Part shown: positions 17,040 through 62,241 of the stretch, one piece after another | How positions within the stretch are numbered: the first letter of the stretch is position 1 | Layout: every line of letters begins with the position of its first letter | Source of the DNA: Nitrospira sp. | GTDB taxonomy: Bacteria; Nitrospirota; Nitrospiria; Nitrospirales; Nitrospiraceae | DNA length: 64,000 nt | Direction of reading: 5' to 3' | Assembly (NCBI GenBank): GCA_005116745.1 | Contig: SWDS01000007.1 | Coordinates: 66,587-130,586, forward strand | Made by a program: the position numbers and the translations under genes | The notes under the pieces: generated by a model | Told to the model about the DNA's origin: nothing | Database searches by the model: none | What the model saw: only the letters and a program-made list of their open reading frames with translations

Positions 17040-18027
17040 TTGGAGCCGCAGTGGTGGAATTGGTATTGATCGGCATAACAAAGAACACGTAATCCATAGC
17101 ATCGTGGAAGTCAATCGACGGAACAACGGAAGGATGCGCGGTTTCCCGTTCAATTTTCCCACCTTGAGTTCTAACCCGAGCAGATTGCCGGGCGGCTCCG
17201 ACGCGCGTATCCTGACGACATGAGCAAGCACCTCTCGGCCGAGACCATCTATGTAGGCCTGTATGTGCTGCCACGCGGAGCGCTGCGGAGCGAGCTGTTG
17301 GCGGCGTTGCGTCAGGCACGCAAGGCCCGCCGGCCTCGGGCACGAGGCGCAGACCGCCGCGGCCAGATTCCCAACATGACGCCCATCGCCGAGCGTCCCG
17401 CCGACGTGAGCACTCGCACCGTGCCGGGTCACTGGGAAGGGCGACCTCATCAAGGGAGCGCGCAATAGATCGGCTGTCGGGACCTTGGTGGAGCGGACGA
17501 CCCGCCGGGTCATCCTGGCCCGGATGGAGGGGACGGATGCGACGAGTGCCCGCCAGGGCTTGACGAAGAAACTCCGGCACGTGCCTGCCGCACTGCGGAA
17601 AACCCTGACGTATGATCGGGGCAAAGAGATGGCCGAGCATGAGCAGTTGCTCAGCGGCTCGCGATCCAGATCTTCTTTGCCGAGCCGTACAGCCCCTGGC
17701 AACGTGGCACCAACGAAAACACCAATGGCCTGCTGCGCCAGTACCTGCCCAAAGGGACGGACTTGTCCGGTTATACCCAGCGTGCGTTGAATGCCATCGC
17801 CCATCGGCTGAACACGCGCCCACGAAAATGTCTCGACGTTGCCACGCCCTTGGAAGCTTACGCGCAGTGGCGCCTTCATTCACCCGTTGCACTTGGAACT
17901 TGAAACCGCCAGGATTTTCAATCGTAACGTCAATATTGGTTCTGAGCGATCTTGCAAGTGACAACGGACTGGCCGCATCGCTAGACTGCTGAAATTCGCG
18001 GTTGTGTTTTGTAGTGTCGGCTCGCAA
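17040..18027 (-). pseudogene. Possible minus-strand ORF split by the IS30 remnant
   Basis: On the minus strand an open frame reads into the IS30 remnant as ...TNIDVTIENP and, on the other side, resumes as GGKIERETAHPSV. Removing 17163-17906 joins the two in the same frame without a gap (VTIENP-GGKIER). Its left end runs antisense into the regulator gene, and I do not recognise the product, so the ORF may be accidental. Confidence 0.25.
17163..17907 (+). mobile_element. Decayed IS30-family element, copy 1
   Basis: A broken IS30-type transposase spread over several frames: SAETIYVGLYVLPRGALRSELL, then VPGHWEG and [47 protein letters not shown] and [21 protein letters not shown]. The DDE domain is frameshifted and the N-terminal part is missing. 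The left edge TTGAGTTCTAACCCGAG and the right edge GTGGAACTTGAAACCGCC-like sequence match the ends of the copy at 61319-62190 and fit imperfect terminal inverted repeats. It is non-functional. Confidence 0.88.
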
Positions 18028-21580: not shown

Positions 21581-21602
21581 TACACGTCAGAACCAAATAG
21601 CT

Positions 21603-21747
21603 GTTCGAGCACGAGCAGGTGGCCCAGCGGCTCACGATCCGATCTTCTTTGCCGATCCGTACAGCCCCTGGCAACGCGGCATCAACGAGCATACGAATGG
21701 CCGACTGCGCCAGTATTCACCCGTTGCACGTGGAACTTGAAACCGCC
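21603..21747 (+). mobile_element. Decayed IS30-family scrap, copy 2
   Basis: About 145 bases matching the inside and the right end of the copy at 61319-62190: EHEQVAQRLTI-type sequence, [11 protein letters not shown] and NEHTNGRLRQ, then a jump to the right terminus (CACGTGGAACTTGAAACC). The middle is deleted and one base is lost in the coding part. Confidence 0.8.
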
Positions 21748-21749
21748 CG

Positions 21750-21970
21750 GTAATTCTCGCCGTTGACTCTCCTCGACATGTGTTAGGGCTATAGTGTCCC
21801 TCCGTAACTTCTCCACTTCAGTCTTTTGCTGATCCAATTCCTTGGCATAGTCGGCAAGAAAGAAATCAGTCGTCCTTTTGAGTGCGATCAAGTACGCATC
21901 AAGCCGAGCGCCAACCTGTCTGCTATGGATATGGGTACTCTGGCTGATCGGTTTCTGAGTGATTGGGCTG
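21750..21970 (-). pseudogene. Startless ORF fragment next to the IS30 scrap
   Basis: An open minus-strand frame without a start codon reads about 70 residues (ITQKPISQSTHIHS, then LDAYLIALKRTTDFFLADYA and KELDQQKTEVEKLRRDT) and runs into the IS30 right end. It is helical and charged and not recognised. It looks like the interior of a disrupted gene. Confidence 0.4.
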
Positions 21971-33731: not shown

Positions 33732-34031
<300 letters not shown>

Positions 34032-34298
34032 TCAGTAAGCCTTCTGAAAATCCGGTTTACTCAGCACGCGCACGATGTCAATGCGGGCCCCAAATCGCTT
34101 AAAGACCACCCGATAATCGCCCGCTCGTAATCGATACAACGGCTCCTTAAAGCCCTGCAACTTCTTGATCCGTTTCCCGTCTGGAAAGGGATCGTCGGCG
34201 AGGCGGGCACAGTCGGCAAGAATTTGGTTGGCGATCTTGACGGAGAAGATATCCAGATCGCGTTGTGCTTTCTCGGACAGAAACACCTGGCAGGTCAC
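34032..34298 (-). CDS. RelE/ParE-family toxin
   Basis: An 88-residue toxin of the RelE superfamily: VFLSEKAQRDLDIFSVKIAN, then DGKRIKKLQGFKEPLYRLRA and GDYRVVFKRFGARIDIVRVL. The KKLxGxxxPLYRLRxGDYRVVF phrase, with its Arg and Lys residues, is typical of mRNA-cleaving RelE toxins. It overlaps its antitoxin by an ATGA junction. It sits between serS and the duplicate serS 3' fragment. Confidence 0.9.
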   Translation of the reverse strand: MTCQVFLSEKAQRDLDIFSVKIANQILADCARLADDPFPDGKRIKKLQGFKEPLYRLRAGDYRVVFKRFGARIDIVRVLSKPDFQKAY

Positions 34299-34570
34299 GC
34301 GGTACGGACTTTCTTTCTCCTCCGTGTGGCCTTGTAGTCGGATAGGGACATGGACCGGCCAGCGCGGATGTCTTTCAACCCCTCTTCGATCTTCTTCCGC
34401 AGTTTTGGGCTATAGGCCAACAAGGCATCCTCGATGTCGTCTTCCGTTACGGGAACCAGCATGGCGGTCGGGCGCCCGTGGGTGGTGACGAGGACGGTGT
34501 TCCCTCGTTCGACGGTCCTGAGCATTTCAGATGTCTTGGCCTTCAGATCGCGTACGTTGGTAAATCTCAC
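34295..34570 (-). CDS. Phd/YefM-family antitoxin
   Basis: A 91-residue antitoxin: RFTNVRDLKAKTSEMLRTVE followed by RGNTVLVTTHGRPTAMLVPV is the Phd/YefM N-terminal fold that dimerises and binds operator DNA; the acidic to basic C-terminal tail (LKDIRAGRSMSLSDYKATRR) wraps the toxin. I start at GTG 34570, because AGGAGAGAG precedes it directly; the longer frame starts at TTG and places that site inside the coding region. Antitoxin and toxin overlap by 4 bases. Confidence 0.88.
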   Translation of the reverse strand: MRFTNVRDLKAKTSEMLRTVERGNTVLVTTHGRPTAMLVPVTEDDIEDALLAYSPKLRKKIEEGLKDIRAGRSMSLSDYKATRRRKKVRTA

Positions 34571-34601
34571 GACTCTCTCCTGTAGTTGCAAGTGTGGCTA
34601 C

Positions 34602-34782: not shown

Positions 34783-36078
<1,296 letters not shown>

Positions 36079-36156: not shown

Positions 36157-36345
36157 GCAGGATGTTCAAATAGGCCTTTCAGCAAGGCCGCAACGAGCGA
36201 AGAGGCGAGGAGGTACATACCAAGCTTTGCTTGAACCGCTCGCTTCGATCACATGCGAGCGGATAAGCACCTTTCCATCGCCTTCTACGTTGAGCCTCTG
36301 AGCAATGCGAGAACGAAGCTGAAGGCCTATTTCAATATCCTGCTA
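36157..36345 (+). repeat. Palindromic dispersed element, copy 1
   Basis: Begins GCAGGATGTTCAAATAGGCC and ends with the inverse (GGCCTATTTCAATATCCTGC TA). Inside are GCAAGGCCGCAACGAGCGAA on one side and GAGCCTCTGAGCAATGCGAG on the other, which match copy 2 (37483-37606) in reverse orientation. A half-copy (TAGCAGGCTGCTGAAAAC) sits at 36079-36096 against the serS start. No ORF. Confidence 0.75.
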
Positions 36346-36442
36346 GAAAGCGGTTGGAATCTAGCACTCGATTTCTACAGAGTCAATGAATGGCCAGCTC
36401 AGGGGACATGAGCCGATGGCTTCCCTATGGAATTGACATCGA

Positions 36443-37483
36443 ATGGGTGTGAAGAACAGGATGTCGACCATGCGCCAGATCTCCAATCCTCCCAACCCAT
36501 TTGAGTCGCAGCATCGGGACCTTCTGGAACCGGTCGCCTCGCCGCAATTGATGGTGTATACAGACGAGACGCGAGAGATTCTGAGCCGTAACGACAGTCC
36601 GGATTTACCGTTTCGATGGAGTGTGAATCCCTATCGAGGCTGCTTTCATGCCTGTGCCTATTGTTATGCACGTCCTTCGCATGAATATTGGGGGTTCGGT
36701 GCGGGAACCGATTTTGAGAGCAAAATCGTGGTGAAGGAAGATGCTCCACGATTACTTCGGCAGCAATTTGAGAAGGCTTCATGGCCTGGAGAGCTGATCG
36801 TCTTTTCAGGAAACACGGACTGCTACCAGCCGATTGAGGCAGAGTACGAGTTGACCCGAGCCTGTCTGCAGGTCTGTGCAGACTATCGGAACCCTGTCGG
36901 TATTATTACGAAAGGCGCGTTGGTGTTGCGCGATCTTGATGTGCTCATGCAGTTACACCATGAGGCCTGGATCCTGGTTTACTTTAGTATTCCCTTTGCG
37001 TCAGACGAGATGGCTAGAAAGGTAGAGCCCCAGGCTCCGTCCATTACGAAACGGTTCTCTGCCATGAAGGCGCTTTCCGACGCCGGCATCCCAACCGGTC
37101 TTTCGATTGCGCCGATCATTCCTGGTCTGAATGAAGATGATATTCCTGAACTGTTGGATCGTGCGTATGGTGCCGGCGCCCGTACTGCGACCCATAGCCT
37201 GTTGAGACTATCCGGCAGTCTGGAGGCGGTATTTCTGGATCGGATGGGGGAGGCCTTTCCAAAACGGATTGGAAAGATCACCAATCGACTCCGTGAGATC
37301 AGGGGCGGGTCGTTGACGGAGAGCCGATTCTTCACGCGGCAGGTAGGGCAAGGACCCTATTGGGAGTTGATCGAACAGCTATTCGATCTGGCGAGACGGC
37401 GGGCAGGATTTAATGACGATGTTACGATCGCGGTTCCACAGACGTTTCGTCGTCCGGGCGGGGAACAGGGCTCACTCTTTTAG
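36443..37483 (+). CDS. Radical SAM protein, PA0069/SPL-like family
   Basis: A 346-residue protein with the radical SAM cluster motif CFHACAYCYARPSHEY (CxxxCxxC, near residue 70), followed by WPGELIVFSGNTDCYQPIEA and the TIM-barrel phrases VGIITKGALVLRDLDVL and GIPTGLSIAPIIPGLNE. This is the family of PA0069 and Rv2578c, distantly related to spore photoproduct lyase, with no proven reaction. The start could be 36443 or the ATG at 36461; neither has a strong ribosome site. The TAG stop is formed by the first bases of palindromic copy 2, and copy 1 lies 98 bases upstream. Confidence 0.9.
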   Translation: MGVKNRMSTMRQISNPPNPFESQHRDLLEPVASPQLMVYTDETREILSRNDSPDLPFRWSVNPYRGCFHACAYCYARPSHEYWGFGAGTDFESKIVVKEDAPRLLRQQFEKASWPGELIVFSGNTDCYQPIEAEYELTRACLQVCADYRNPVGIITKGALVLRDLDVLMQLHHEAWILVYFSIPFASDEMARKVEPQAPSITKRFSAMKALSDAGIPTGLSIAPIIPGLNEDDIPELLDRAYGAGARTATHSLLRLSGSLEAVFLDRMGEAFPKRIGKITNRLREIRGGSLTESRFFTRQVGQGPYWELIEQLFDLARRRAGFNDDVTIAVPQTFRRPGGEQGSLF

Positions 37484-37606
37484 CAGGATGCTGAAAAAGG
37501 CCGCCAGCGGCGTTCTCGCATCGCTCAGAGGCTCAACGTACCGAAGCGTACGCCTTCGTCTCTTCGCTCGCTGCGGCCTTGCTAGCAGCCTTTTTGAGCA
37601 TCCTGC
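37483..37606 (+). repeat. Palindromic dispersed element, copy 2
   Basis: Arms GCAGGATGCTGAAAAAGGCC and (inverted) GGCTGCTAGCAAGG... to GAGCATCCTGC; the outer 20 bases of the two ends pair with two mismatches. The element could form a long hairpin and act as a terminator-like structure for the radical SAM gene. It carries the central GAGGCTCAACGTACC shared in reverse with copy 1. Confidence 0.8.
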
Positions 37607-43248: not shown

Positions 43249-43779
43249 ATGACGACCTTGGAACGGCTGCTTAACGGTGAGTTTATCCATCCCAGCACAT
43301 GGTTTGGAGTCATCTTCTACGCGCTGGTGTTCCTCACGTCGGCGTGGGTGGGGCTCCGTTCGCTGCGTCTCGCGCTGGCACAGCTGGAAGGGAGTTTCCT
43401 GGACCGCACGTCGGTAGGATTCTTGCGCCGCATGGGGGGAGCACTCATCTGGGTGCTGGCTGTGATTCTCTATGCGAATGTGATTCCTGAGCTTCACGCG
43501 TTTGGGACAGCGCTACTTGCGGGTGCCAGTGTGGCGTCAGTCCTGGTGGGATTGGCGGCGCAGAGTACCCTGGGCAATATGATTGCCGGCTTGTCGCTGC
43601 TGATGTATCGACCGTTTCAAATTGGAGACTCCGTGCAGTTGACCGTGCCGGTGGGCGTCCAAACTGGCACGATCGAAGACCTAACGCTCGGCTACACCGT
43701 GATTAAGACGCAACAAAACCAGGAAATCGTGGTTCCGAATAGCGTGATGGCGAGCCAAGCCATCATTAAGTTGGCGTAG
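43249..43779 (+). CDS. Small MscS-like mechanosensitive channel
   Basis: A 176-residue MscS-family protein: helices WFGVIFYALVFLTSAWVGLR and MGGALIWVLAVILYANVIPE, the pore helix and beta region FGTALLAGASVASVLVGLAA, QSTLGNMIAGLSLLMYRPFQ, IGDSVQL and the C-terminal GTIEDLTLGYTVIKTQQNQE IVVPNSVM. It is short, lacking the large C-terminal vestibule domain. GGAGG precedes the ATG at 43249. Its last bases (from about 43722) and 130 following bases recur at 45991 and 47029, separating gene clusters. Confidence 0.88.
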   Translation: MTTLERLLNGEFIHPSTWFGVIFYALVFLTSAWVGLRSLRLALAQLEGSFLDRTSVGFLRRMGGALIWVLAVILYANVIPELHAFGTALLAGASVASVLVGLAAQSTLGNMIAGLSLLMYRPFQIGDSVQLTVPVGVQTGTIEDLTLGYTVIKTQQNQEIVVPNSVMASQAIIKLA

Positions 43780-43915
43780 AGAATGAGGCGCTGCCTCGAT
43801 TCGAACGGTGCGGTGGGTTGGCGGGGCAGGAAATCTATAGTGGGGTGGGCGAGCCAGGAGAGCTCTGCGTGGTTCTATGCTATGTGCGATAGAAGAGCTG
43901 ACACGAAATTGTGTA
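43722..43915 (+). repeat. mscS-end repeat, copy A (native)
   Basis: The last 58 bases of mscS plus about 136 following bases. It contains GTGATGGCGAGCCAAGCCAT, CCTCGATTCGAACGG, GGGCGAGCCAGGAGAG and ends GAAGAGCTGACACGAAATTG. Copies B (45991-46167) and C (47029-47217) match over their whole length with scattered changes. Confidence 0.85.
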
Positions 43916-43980: not shown

Positions 43981-44979
43981 ATGATGAACATCTTCCTCGT
44001 GGCAATCGTCCTTTTCCTGGTCCTCCTGCTGATCGGAGTCGTGCTGTACGTGCGAGTCCCCCGCACATATCAGTCTGCCGATTCTGTCGCCAATTCTTAT
44101 GATGATTGGACGAATGACGGCATCCTTGAGTTCTACTGGGGCGAACATATCCATCTGGGACACTATGGCTCTCCACCCGGCAACAAGGACTTTCTCAAAG
44201 CCAAGTCAGACTTTGTGCATGAAATGGTGCGTTGGGGTGGGTTAGACAAGCTTCCGTCCGGTACGACGGTGTTAGATGTGGGCTGCGGCATTGGCGGCAG
44301 CAGTCGCATGCTGGCGCGGGAGTATGGCTGTGCGGTCACCGGAGTCACCCTCAGCCCTCAGCAAGTCAGACGGGCTCAAGAACTGACCGCCCCAGAGGTG
44401 AATGCCCACTTTCAGGTCGATGATGCGCTGGCACTGTCGTTCCCCGATGCCAGTTTTGATGTGGTCTGGTCGGTCGAGGCAGGACCGCACATGCCGGATA
44501 AGGCACAATTTGCTCGAGAGCTTATGCGCGTGCTGAAACCGGGAGGAATTCTGGTTGTGGCCGATTGGAATCAGCGGGACGATCGCCAGGTTCCACTCAA
44601 TGGTTGGGAAAAGCCGGTGATGCGGCAGCTGCTGGATCAGTGGTCTCATCCGGCCTTTTCGAGCATTGAAGAGTTTTCTGAATTACTGGAGGCCACCGGA
44701 CTGGTGGCGGGTGACGTCACCACAGCCGATTGGACTGCCGAAACCTTACCCTCATGGCTCGATTCGATCTGGCAGGGCGTCATCCGTCCAGCAGGGATTG
44801 TTCGATTCGGCGTGAGCGGGTTCATGAAATCTTTGCGGGAAGTGCCCACGATTCTGTTGATGCGTCTGGCATTCGGGGCAGGGCTCTGTCGCTTTGGCAT
44901 GTTTCGGGCTGTGCATGCCAAGGTCCCGACGAGTGCGCGGTTGTCCGCGCAGACGGATGACAGGCTGGTACGGTCATAA
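43981..44979 (+). CDS. Membrane-anchored SAM methyltransferase, tocopherol-methyltransferase-like
   Basis: A 332-residue protein: N-terminal helix (LVAIVLFLVLLLIGVVLYV), then the motif FYWGEHIHLGHYG, typical of gamma-tocopherol/MPBQ and sterol-type methyltransferases of cyanobacteria and plants. SAM motif I is TTVLDVGCGIGGSSRMLARE; post-I VTGVTLSPQQVRRAQEL; motif II SFPDASFDVVWSVEAGPHM; then MRVLKPGGILVVADW. It probably methylates a membrane quinol or similar lipid. It lies between mscS-end repeats A and B, next to glutathione peroxidase, and reads as imported cargo. Confidence 0.85.
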   Translation: MMNIFLVAIVLFLVLLLIGVVLYVRVPRTYQSADSVANSYDDWTNDGILEFYWGEHIHLGHYGSPPGNKDFLKAKSDFVHEMVRWGGLDKLPSGTTVLDVGCGIGGSSRMLAREYGCAVTGVTLSPQQVRRAQELTAPEVNAHFQVDDALALSFPDASFDVVWSVEAGPHMPDKAQFARELMRVLKPGGILVVADWNQRDDRQVPLNGWEKPVMRQLLDQWSHPAFSSIEEFSELLEATGLVAGDVTTADWTAETLPSWLDSIWQGVIRPAGIVRFGVSGFMKSLREVPTILLMRLAFGAGLCRFGMFRAVHAKVPTSARLSAQTDDRLVRS

Positions 44980-45006
44980 ATCTGAAGACGCTGTGAGGTG
45001 GGAGCT

Positions 45007-45483
45007 ATGAGTTTCTACGACATCAACCTCGTCACGATCGACGGCACGCCGCAGAAGATGGAGGTCTACCGCGGCAAGACGCTGCTCATCGTGAATGTCG
45101 CGAGCCAGTGCGGCTTCACGCCGCAGTATGAGGGCCTTCAGGCGCTCTACGGAACATTCAAAGATCGAGGTTTCGTGGTGCTCGGGTTCCCCTGTAACCA
45201 GTTCGGCCAGCAGGAGCCGGGCGGCGAAGCGGAGATTGAACAGTTCTGCACCAGGAACTTCAGTGTCACCTTTCCGATGTTCGCCAAGATCGACGTCAAC
45301 GGCGTGAACGCACACCCGCTCTACCAATATCTGAAATCGGAGAAGCCCGGGATTCTCGGGACCGAGGGGATCAAATGGAACTTCACCAAGTTCCTCGTCG
45401 GTTCCGACGGCACGGTCTTGAAACGCTATGCGCCGAGTGAGAAGCCGGAGATGATCGAGGCCGATCTCGCTACGAAGCTCTAG
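45007..45483 (+). CDS. Glutathione peroxidase-family protein
   Basis: A 158-residue thiol peroxidase. The active site uses Cys (VNVASQCGFTPQYEGLQALY) where animal enzymes have selenocysteine; a resolving-type region FPCNQFGQQEPG and the Trp site IKWNFTKFLV complete the triad. The start is ATG 45007 after GGTGGGAGCT. Third-codon positions are more GC-rich than in nearby genes, suggesting transfer. It is 27 bases after the methyltransferase, so the two form one unit between mscS-end repeats A and B. Confidence 0.93.
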   Translation: MSFYDINLVTIDGTPQKMEVYRGKTLLIVNVASQCGFTPQYEGLQALYGTFKDRGFVVLGFPCNQFGQQEPGGEAEIEQFCTRNFSVTFPMFAKIDVNGVNAHPLYQYLKSEKPGILGTEGIKWNFTKFLVGSDGTVLKRYAPSEKPEMIEADLATKL

Positions 45484-45494
45484 ACGACCGGGGT

Positions 45495-45549
45495 CGTCGA
45501 GAAGCGAAATCTTTACCTGCTCGAAAATTCAGAATGTCCCCGTGTTATC
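45495..45549 (+). repeat. Short dispersed repeat, left copy
   Basis: Shares TACCTGCTCGAAAATTCAGA and CCCCGT.TTATC with 46942-46998, the right copy, which lies just before mscS-end repeat C. About 55 bases, no ORF. Confidence 0.7.
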
Positions 45550-45686
45550 TTCCTGTTCTCGAGGCCTCAAGTGTATGACACATCGTGTATCGCCATGTTT
45601 CAGCCCCTGCTAGGCCTTCGAGGAGGGATTGATTATAATGAGCCCTATCGCAGATCTGGGATTCGATTCGAGTGAGGGAATGGGCA

Positions 45687-45911
45687 ATGGGAACAAGAAG
45701 CTATACGGCGATCGTCGAAAAGGAAGGAGCGAGTTATGTCGCGCTCTGCCCGGAACTGGACGTAGCCAGCCAAGGAGAGACGGTCGAATCGGCCACGGCC
45801 AATCTCAAAGAAGCGGTCGAACTGTTTCTCGAATGCGCCGATCCCGCCGAAGTCGAACGCCGGCTCCATACACAGGTTTTTGTCACCCGCTTCGAAGCGG
45901 CCCATGGGTAA
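45687..45911 (+). CDS. hicB: HicB-like antitoxin
   Basis: A 74-residue HicB N-terminal-type protein: YTAIVEKEGASYVALCPELD followed by VASQGETVESATANLKEAVE and LFLECADP. This is the RNase-H-like partial fold that blocks HicA. It has no DNA-binding domain, as in short HicB proteins. ATG 45687 gives the conserved start. Its stop overlaps the hicA ATG. The toxin is truncated, so the antitoxin no longer has a functional partner here. Confidence 0.88.
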   Translation: MGTRSYTAIVEKEGASYVALCPELDVASQGETVESATANLKEAVELFLECADPAEVERRLHTQVFVTRFEAAHG

Positions 45912-46032
45912 ACTCCGCGTCCTTTCTGGGCGAGACGTCTGCCGCATCCTCGAACAACACGATTTTCAGATCGTCCGTCAACACGGAAGCCATATCGTGA
46001 TGGCGAGCCAAGCCATCATTACGTCGGTGTAG
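45904..46032 (+). pseudogene. hicA: HicA toxin truncated and fused in frame to the mscS tail
   Basis: A 42-residue frame. Residues 1-33 are HicA (KLRVLSGRDVCRILEQHDFQ IVRQHGSHIVM), including the RQxGSH motif with the catalytic His. It should continue for about 35 more residues, but at IVM the DNA switches to the mscS 3' end and finishes ASQAIITSV, the mscS tail. The shared bases at the switch are CGTGATG. The HicA fold is incomplete, so the toxin is probably dead. Confidence 0.85.
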
Positions 46033-46167
46033 AGGAGTAGGCGATGCCTCGATTCGAACGGTGAGATGAGTTGGCGGGAGTGGAAATGTATGGTGGGATG
46101 GGCGAGCCAGGAGGGCTATGCGTGGTTCTATGCCATGTCAGATACAAGAGCTGACCCCAAATTGTGC
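45991..46167 (+). repeat. mscS-end repeat, copy B
   Basis: Second copy of the mscS 3' end and its following DNA. It begins inside hicA at CGTGATGGCGAGCCAAGCCA and ends AGATACAAGAGCTGACCCCA AATTGTG. It lies 15 bases before the RelE gene end at 46183. Confidence 0.85.
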
Positions 46168-46182
46168 GCTGGAGCATTCTTC

Positions 46183-46440
46183 TCAGCGATAGACTTCTTT
46201 ACGGTCGCCAATCTTGACGATCAGGACGATCAACTCCTTATCTTGGATCGTGTAGATGATCCGGTAATCGCCTTCGCGAATACGGTAGAGAGAGTCTTCG
46301 CCAGTGAGTTTCTTCACCCCCTGCGGACGTGGATGATGCTGCAACATCTTCATGCGCTTGACCAGGCGTTTCTGGATCGCTGGAGCGAAGGATCGAAGTT
46401 GGCGTTCAGCAGACGGGGAGAGAAGAATTGAGTAAGACAT
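46183..46440 (-). CDS. RelE-family toxin
   Basis: An 85-residue RelE toxin: ILLSPSAERQLRSFAPAIQK, then RPQGVKKLTGEDSLYRIREG and DYRIIYTIQDKELIVLIVKI, ending GDRKEVYR. The Lys/Arg pair in KKLTG...LYRIREGDYRIIY and the C-terminal Tyr fit an active mRNA endonuclease. It follows its antitoxin by 9 bases on the minus strand, between mscS-end repeats B and C. Confidence 0.93.
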   Translation of the reverse strand: MSYSILLSPSAERQLRSFAPAIQKRLVKRMKMLQHHPRPQGVKKLTGEDSLYRIREGDYRIIYTIQDKELIVLIVKIGDRKEVYR

Positions 46441-46449
46441 CGGGCGAGG

Positions 46450-46704
46450 CTAGAGGCCAAGGTCCTTCAGAATCACGTCCAGCGATTTCGCTCCCTTTTT
46501 CTTCGTTTCGGCCAACGCAGCCCGCGCATCAGCCAGGTCAATACGATCTTCTAAGTCTTCCAAGAGTCGTAAATCGGCAATCGGCACAACTGCGGCCACG
46601 TCTTTTCCGCGTCGGCGCACCACCACACGCTCTTTCCCATAGGCCGCACGATTGATCGTATCCGCAAACCCTTGCCTAGCTTTGCTGGCCGGAAGATGAC
46701 CCAT
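46450..46704 (-). CDS. Phd/YefM-family antitoxin
   Basis: An 84-residue antitoxin: PASKARQGFADTINRAAYGK followed by ERVVVRRRGKDVAAVVPIAD gives the Phd fold; the C-terminal part (LADARAALAETKKKGAKSLD) is the toxin-binding tail. The ATG at 46704 follows a GGGGGAA site; the 35 residues further upstream in the same frame overlap the promoter. It is the first gene of the TA operon. Confidence 0.9.
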   Translation of the reverse strand: MGHLPASKARQGFADTINRAAYGKERVVVRRRGKDVAAVVPIADLRLLEDLEDRIDLADARAALAETKKKGAKSLDVILKDLGL

Positions 46705-46809: not shown

Positions 46810-47246
46810 TTAGAATAAGATCCCAGGAGGGCGTTGATATATTGGTCAGCCCACTCAAAAAGAAACTGCGACCGCCATTGGACGGCTTCCTTCGACTTGT
46901 TCAGGACAAGCAGGGCAGGAATGGCGTGGCGGCGGCTGGGGGCGTCGAAAAGTGAAGTCTGTACCTGCTCGAAAATTCAGGATGGCCCCGTTTTATCCCT
47001 TCGTAAGTAAAACGCAAGAGTACAACGACATTGTGGTTCCGAATAACGTGATGGCGAGCCAGACGATCATTAAGTCGGCGTAGAGAATCAGGCGATATTT
47101 CGATTTAAACGGGGAGGTGAGTTGACGGGTCAAGAAATGTATGATGGGGTAGGCGAGCCAGGAGAGCTATGCTGGTTCTGTGACATGCACGATACAAGAT
47201 CTGACACCAATTGTGACCCCTATTATGCGGTCTTACCAATTACGGG
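46810..47246 (+). other. Intergenic stretch with two repeat copies
   Basis: Contains the right copy of the short dispersed repeat (46942-46998) and mscS-end repeat C (47029-47217, ending ATACAAGATCTGACACCAAT). No gene is visible. Confidence 0.75.
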
Positions 47247-61318: not shown

Positions 61319-62190
61319 TGAGTTCTAACTCCAAGTGCATCACGGCAGGCCCGAATGGGCTACGGTGTTGTCATGCGAGAACACGGCGATACACACTTGA
61401 TGGCTGAAGACCGTGACACCGTGAGTCTTGGCCTGCCCCCCATTCACACTCCAAACGATGGCGCGGATCTTGGGCCGAGCGCCCTTCACCGTGAGCCACG
61501 AATACGCCCGTAACACGACGCGGGACTGTCCCTATCGGGCCTGCACCGCTCACACGCAGGCCGCCACCCAAGCCCCGTCAACCGCGGTGGGCGTGCACAC
61601 TGATGGAGTCTTGGCGGTGGCCGTATGTCCAGCCATATCTGGTGCAGGGCTGCTCGCCTGAGCACATTGCTGGGCGGTTTCAGCGCGCGTATCTTGACGA
61701 CATGCGCGCGCATCTCTCGGCTGAGACGATCTAGGCTGGGCTGTCAGTGTTGCCCCGCGGCACGCTAGTGGAGCGGATGACGCACCTAGCCCTTCCGGTT
61801 CGGATGGAGGGGACGGATGCGACGAGTGCCCGCCAGGGCGTTACGAAGACACTCTGGCACGTGCCCGCCGCACTGCGCAACACGCTGACGTACGATTGGG
61901 GCAAAGAGATGGCCGAGCACGAGCAGGTGGCCCAGCGGCTCACGATCCAGATCTTCTTTGCCGATCCGTACAGCCCTTGGTAACACGGCACCAACGAGAA
62001 TACGAATGGCCAGCTGTGCCAGTTTGGCCCACGGGAACGGACTTGTCGGGCTACACGATGCGTGAGTGGAACGCCATGGTGCATCGCCTGAACACGCGCC
62101 CACGAACATGTCTTGACTGTGCGACGCCCCTGGAATTCTCTGCGCAGCTACGCCATGATTCACCCGTCGCACGTGGAACGTGAAACCGCC
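61319..62190 (+). mobile_element. Decayed IS30-family element, copy 4 (longest)
   Basis: Starts TTGAGTTCTAACTCCAAGTG and ends CACGTGGAACGTGAAACC. Frame pieces in order: ARILGRAPFTVSHEYARNTT (helix-turn-helix), YLDDMRAHLSAETI, a stop, [40 protein letters not shown] and FADPYSPW, a stop. Several frameshifts and stops make it dead. It lies between the DsbA-like gene and transketolase. Confidence 0.9.
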
Positions 62191-62241
62191 CGGTATTGAA
62201 CTCGCTCCAATAAATCATGGTCGCTCGTTCTAGAAGACCAG

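Follow-up and report, generated by a model that had tools for sequence, protein, structure and literature searches.

How does a toxin gene come to end in the last codons of a channel gene, and does such a junction explain how a repeat was joined to the genes that it accompanies? This question is raised by a locus in the window analyzed here, a stretch of 64,000 nucleotides from a Nitrospira sp., in which the toxin gene hicA runs into the 3' end of an mscS gene.

The junction between hicA and mscS

The tail repeats of this locus derive from the 3' end of mscS (43249–43779), a gene for a short MscS-type channel. The tail copy that is attached to this gene (copy a) covers positions 43739–43913. 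It is followed by a methyltransferase gene (MT, 43981–44979), by the glutathione peroxidase gene gpx (44998–45483) and by a first copy of the gpx 3' flank (D8a, 45484–45549). Next come the antitoxin gene hicB (45672–45911), which is open, encodes 79 amino acids and is 98.7% identical to hicB of the relative G056, and the shortened toxin gene hicA' (45904–46032), whose start has 8 nt in common with the end of hicB. The second copy of the mscS tail (copy b, 45996–46166) comprises the last codons and the 3' flank of mscS and is 86% identical to copy a. Behind it lie the genes of a ParE/RelE-type toxin (46183–46440) and a Phd-type antitoxin (46453–46704), a second copy of the gpx 3' flank (D8b, 46933–46997) and, joined to D8b, a third copy of the mscS tail (copy c, 47002–47217). 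The phd-parE pair is encoded on the reverse strand and all other features on the forward strand. The mscS-tail unit of about 175 nt has three copies in the whole 3.86-Mb genome, all of them in this locus, and was therefore rejected as a dispersed mobile repeat. D8 was likewise rejected as a separate mobile repeat, since it is the gpx 3' flank and stands behind gpx in many genomes.

The hicA' reading frame encodes 42 amino acids, namely HicA residues 1–33 followed in frame by the last nine codons of the mscS copy. Its translation is MGKLRVLSGRDVCRILEQHDFQIVRQHGSHIVM up to the switch and ASQAIITSV, the mscS end, behind it; the complete product of 45904–46032 (forward strand) is MGKLRVLSGRDVCRILEQHDFQIVRQHGSHIVMASQAIITSV. 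In a comparison with 175 genomes of the family the homology of hicA to the complete genes of relatives stopped precisely at 46002 (position 331 of the query in most matches). BLAST placed the onset of the mscS-tail match at 45992, and true identity begins at 45996. The initial annotation had described a hicA gene cut in mid-gene and fused in frame to the mscS tail at 45904–46032, to be verified against the hicBA loci of relatives. This comparison bore out both the event and its coordinates, with the homologies switching at 45996–46002. These positions read CGTGATG on the forward strand, the sole bases that both parents have in common at the junction. The annotated switch did fall within this string, the length of which had been given as 7–9 bases and is exactly 7. 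According to our own estimate, which is not the result of a tool, an identity of 7 nt would occur by chance at about 3 in 10,000 random junctions. The string encodes Val-Met in both genes, in hicA as part of HIVM. As the mscS copy of CGTGATG (43743–43749) has the same frame, the fusion is in frame. Comparison of the sequences confirmed that hicA was cut and then joined in frame to the mscS end at these seven shared bases.

The Pfam profile HicA_toxin (PF07927) matched hicA' at 1.2e-07, and the match covered only profile positions 1–26 of 58. A full-length HicA domain is not present, and the HicA proteins of relatives continue for about 40 residues past the junction. Like type II hicBA modules of this family, the locus has the order hicB-hicA, an open hicB and a HicA N-terminus that includes the GSH motif. 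Unlike them, it has the C-terminal half of HicA replaced by nine mscS residues and is probably not a working module. Since this half of the domain is missing, hicA' should be inactive as a toxin. The missing half argues for a loss of RNase activity, and hicA' would then encode a dead toxin next to an antitoxin gene that is still open. This is in line with the annotated loss of the toxin, which would have left hicB without a partner; at this locus hicB is open and hicA is broken.

In the search of the 175 family genomes no other genome had the junction. The genome_contigs collection, in which the window's own genome may be left out, gave no match to it in an exact-pattern scan either. A family of short HicA proteins that naturally end in an ASQAII-like sequence had been named as the observation that would speak against a fusion. 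No HicA ends in ASQAII at any of 80 loci from many phyla, most of which encode 72–75 amino acids. The source genome of 3.86 Mb is a single draft assembly of 32 contigs, and the join, seen in this assembly only, might be an assembly chimera that is not present in the organism. However, an overlap of 7 bases is normally not enough for an assembler to make a join, the tail copies are just 81–86% identical and too short to collapse, and the join lies within a 224-kb contig of an assembly that is 99.96% complete. A chimera is thus extremely improbable.

The locus in related genomes

The relatives G056 and G069 have an uncut locus with the order gpx, D8, hicB region, hicA, about 140 nt, D8 and mscS tail. 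Here hicA runs past the position of the junction (...HIVMQRRTDFGTVTVPIPDH...TAFEI). The distance from CGTGATG in hicA to CGTGATG in the downstream mscS tail is 373 bp in G056 and 378 bp in G069. Both parents of the fusion are found in the same order in relatives without the join, and the recurrence of the 7-mer downstream agrees with the annotated recombination at a few shared bases. Of these two genomes only G056 has both hicB and hicA open. G069 carries a stop codon in hicA and an internal deletion in hicB. This deletion (L094, 10520–10713) joins TATAATC to CCGCTTCG; together with the nonsense codon in hicA it leaves both genes dead. In G057 and G111 the D8-mscS tail unit, the same as D8b with copy c, is located straight after gpx. 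These genomes have a single D8 and no hicBA, which represents the state without the module: an empty site without the second repeat, as would be expected for an insertion with long target duplication. Since the mscS tail already stands behind hicA in G056 and G069, the fusion of hicA' to mscS is a later, lineage-specific loss. The annotated view that the junction shows how the repeat was first joined to its cargo was not upheld.

We regard as likely an account with two layers, in which hicA was lost through microhomology within a setting of toxin-antitoxin (TA) modules that are carried with foreign gene ends. CGTGATG in hicA would have recombined with the same 7-mer in a downstream copy of the mscS tail. 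This would have removed the remainder of hicA together with everything between it and the tail (373 or 378 bp in the uncut relatives), probably by slipped-strand or microhomology end-joining. A plain deletion of the interval found in G056 and G069 was not kept as the sole possibility, because copy b is weakly of another lineage. It grouped weakly with the mscS-attached copies and not with the D8-linked ones (support of 0.89 for the group and 0.21 for the placement within it), and the window still keeps a further D8-tail unit downstream of copy b. The partner of hicA may therefore have been an extra or a different copy of the tail.

The slightly closer relation of copy b to the mscS-attached copies also fits a different course of events, in which the mscS tail together with phd-parE, or a longer foreign piece, was inserted into hicA with its left join at CGTGATG. 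Copy b is in fact followed by phd-parE, and the relatives of this pair in G069 and G128 are also located 3' of an mscS tail. There, however, they have the opposite orientation, and a deletion needs fewer steps, because the relatives already have the mscS tail downstream of hicA. Consequently, we consider the insertion unlikely and prefer the loss of hicA by recombination with a tail copy. The pair at 46183–46704 of the window is inverted with respect to 11202–11813 of L094 (G069) and 10517–11127 of L091 (G128), which points either to an inversion or to an independent insertion. In G128 (L091, 9299–11601) gpx is followed by successive mscS-tail copies with a vapBC-like pair and phd-parE between them. 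Thus, different species took up different TA modules at the same site.

The status of hicBA was compared at 27 loci of relatives and in the window. At 12 of these loci hicB was open and hicA broken, at 10 both genes were open and at 6 both were broken; an open hicA with a broken hicB was found at none of them. Such an asymmetry would be expected if the toxin has to be inactivated before the antitoxin. With a Fisher p of 0.06 it is not significant on its own, and, as the loci were found mainly via hicB, it is only suggestive. Degeneration of chromosomal TA systems is known from hok-sok copies and from ccdO157 (reviewed in PMC2654758). As in these systems, the addictive property would have been lost through mutation or rearrangement. 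The event in the window differs from them in being a microhomology fusion to a repeat of the same locus, with the antitoxin gene staying open. By itself, the junction is a well-preserved instance of toxin decay of an ordinary kind.

Toxin-antitoxin modules between gene ends

The other long repeats of the window are gene ends around TA modules. On the forward strand a HigBA-like module (376–1084) lies between the attached 3' end of lipA (1–257), a gene that starts upstream of the window, and a detached lipA 3' end (1133–1465). The detached copy is 82% identical, and most of the differences are at third codon positions. Behind it, at 1474–2081, is a second small gene pair that resembles another TA module. 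On the reverse strand serS with its attached 3' end (34783–36069) is followed by a Phd/RelE-like module (34032–34591) and by a detached serS 3' end (33736–33980) of 84% identity. Separately, inverted repeats of 63 nt (36286–36348 and 37478–37540, 86% complementary) were observed to flank a radical-SAM-like gene (36443–37483, named by eye), and direct repeats at 17478–17924, 21594–21750 and 61758–62204 resemble putative fragments of IS30-type transposase genes on reading.

Because of the gene ends around TA modules, toxins were surveyed genome-wide. The search for ParE, HicA, PIN and Gp49 yielded 44 matches, which correspond to 36 loci. Self-BLAST was used to detect flanking repeats, defined as direct repeats with a length of 45 nt or more within 4 kb, and 19 stretches of 20 kb were used as controls. 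Such repeats flanked 17 of the 44 toxins and 14 of the 36 loci (39%), compared to 2.4% of the control positions. This enrichment by locus had a p of 5e-14, and leaving out the loci of the window itself gave 2e-10. In four further Nitrospira genomes that are closed or nearly so, among them N. moscoviensis, 4 of 20 (20%) were flanked versus 2.7% (p = 0.002). Repeat-flanked modules are a minority of the TA loci, both in this genome and in its relatives.

The detached gene-end copies had lengths of 60–455 nt, and at the 14 flanked loci the module is located between direct repeats as in a long target duplication. Most repeats represent the 3' end of the adjoining gene, namely tex, wecB, uvrA, trpA, acs, a glycosyltransferase gene, lipA, serS and mscS/gpx; some of these names were read from the sequence and not family-tested. 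A few others are intergenic or represent the 5' end of a gene (aat, DUF1810). The 3' end of wecB is present four times (L145, 2121–5396), and each gap holds a different small gene or gene pair (DUF4160-like, ParE, DUF4926); the array looks as if modules had been added successively. Some repeat pairs of the controls contain TA families outside the search, i.e., TacA/GNAT (TacAT; L183) and HepT (L277). Others near TA regions contain DUF433/DUF5615 (L154, L164), and tandem paralogues account for most of the remaining control pairs. Direct repeats also flanked 12 of 55 HicA loci from several phyla, several of these repeats being intergenic or paralogous. When positions within the same loci were compared, 9 of 39 loci were flanked at the HicA position versus 1 to 5 of 39 at offsets. 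This suggests that the pattern extends beyond Nitrospira.

An arrangement of TA cassettes separated by repeats is reminiscent of chromosomal integrons, and islands that restore the 3' end of a gene are known. The repeats might accordingly be sites of a site-specific system, either integron attC sites or the targets of an integrase that restores gene ends, by which TA cassettes are inserted. Against this reading, each locus involves a different gene, no common sequence was noticed, and the mscS tail was found at one locus only. Among the open reading frames of the inspected intervals no integrase was seen by eye. The repeats of these intervals are unrelated gene ends, and neither common attC-like sites nor an integron integrase were found with them. 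Thus, repeats separate TA modules here as they do in chromosomal integrons, but the Nitrospira repeats are coding ends of different genes and no attC-like site was seen. We consider a site-specific system very improbable. A composite transposon was not indicated either, as the flanking repeats are gene ends and not IS copies. One locus (L156) also carries a transposase-like open reading frame.

Origin and meaning of the gene-end copies

The attached and detached copies of lipA, serS, tex, uvrA and trpA are 82–87% identical, and premature stops were found in none of them. The differences between the copies are distributed over codon positions 1, 2 and 3 as 43:18:147, i.e., 147 of 208 (71%) are at third positions. 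For the same segments and their orthologues in other Nitrospira the distribution was 154:57:620 (75% third positions). Decay in place would be expected to give about 50% third-position differences and was rejected (p = 1e-9). Among the species tested, G111 was nearest to the attached copy of lipA, tex and uvrA, and the detached copies were nearest to G069, G058 and G056, respectively. The pattern of between-species divergence and the different nearest species indicate that one copy of each gene-end pair most likely came from another lineage.

These data also bear on the alternative that the detached ends are local tandem duplications which decayed in place, the TA modules having been inserted between them by chance or for space. 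None of the detached copies is a full gene; they could be neutral, and for the intergenic repeats a local duplication could still hold. Nevertheless, the excess of third-position differences and the lack of stops are as between orthologues of different species, the two copies of lipA, tex and uvrA have different nearest species, and repeats are strongly enriched around TA modules. For lipA, serS, tex, uvrA and trpA a local duplication is already contradicted, and in general we judge it improbable.

With a foreign origin of the gene ends, TA modules from a related species would bring along a piece of the adjoining gene. They would be inserted by homologous recombination in this gene, which would leave a divergent long duplication. 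The flanking repeats could subsequently recombine the module out again, but the death of cells that lose a live TA system would disfavor this. Breaking the toxin while sparing the antitoxin, as at hicBA, would be a tolerated way out. The association between repeat and cargo would have its origin not in the junction but in foreign gene ends that accompany TA modules. As a tentative proposal, type II TA modules of Nitrospira, and perhaps those of other bacteria as well, may spread along with the ends of neighboring core genes, with addiction locking the resulting duplication in place.

The closest precedent for this setting is insertion with long target duplication, which has been described for restriction-modification systems of Helicobacter pylori (Nobusato et al. 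2000, Gene 259:99, as cited in PMC2654758 and PMC3031569). In both cases long direct repeats of the target enclose an addiction module without IS or integrase. The Nitrospira modules differ in being type II TA systems, in having repeats that are mostly 3' ends of resident genes, and in having repeat copies that differ like genes of different species. It has been suggested that the selective logic of restriction-modification duplications could extend to TA systems (PMC3031569). A review from 2009 stated that the entry and fixation of chromosomal TA modules were not yet understood (PMC2654758). No report of gene-end duplications around TA modules was found in the open literature; as most subscription papers lie outside it, this is weak evidence for novelty.

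The TA modules carried with foreign gene ends, more than the junction, are the part of these observations worth following. The gene-end signature would provide a countable trace of each arrival, which names the adjoining gene and points to the donor lineage. It would also separate insertion from later decay, the latter step being exemplified by the hicA-mscS junction. Through the combination of repeats and TA modules, addiction as a lock on duplications becomes directly testable in the laboratory. The pattern hints at how TA pairs pass from one bacterium to another and become difficult to lose.
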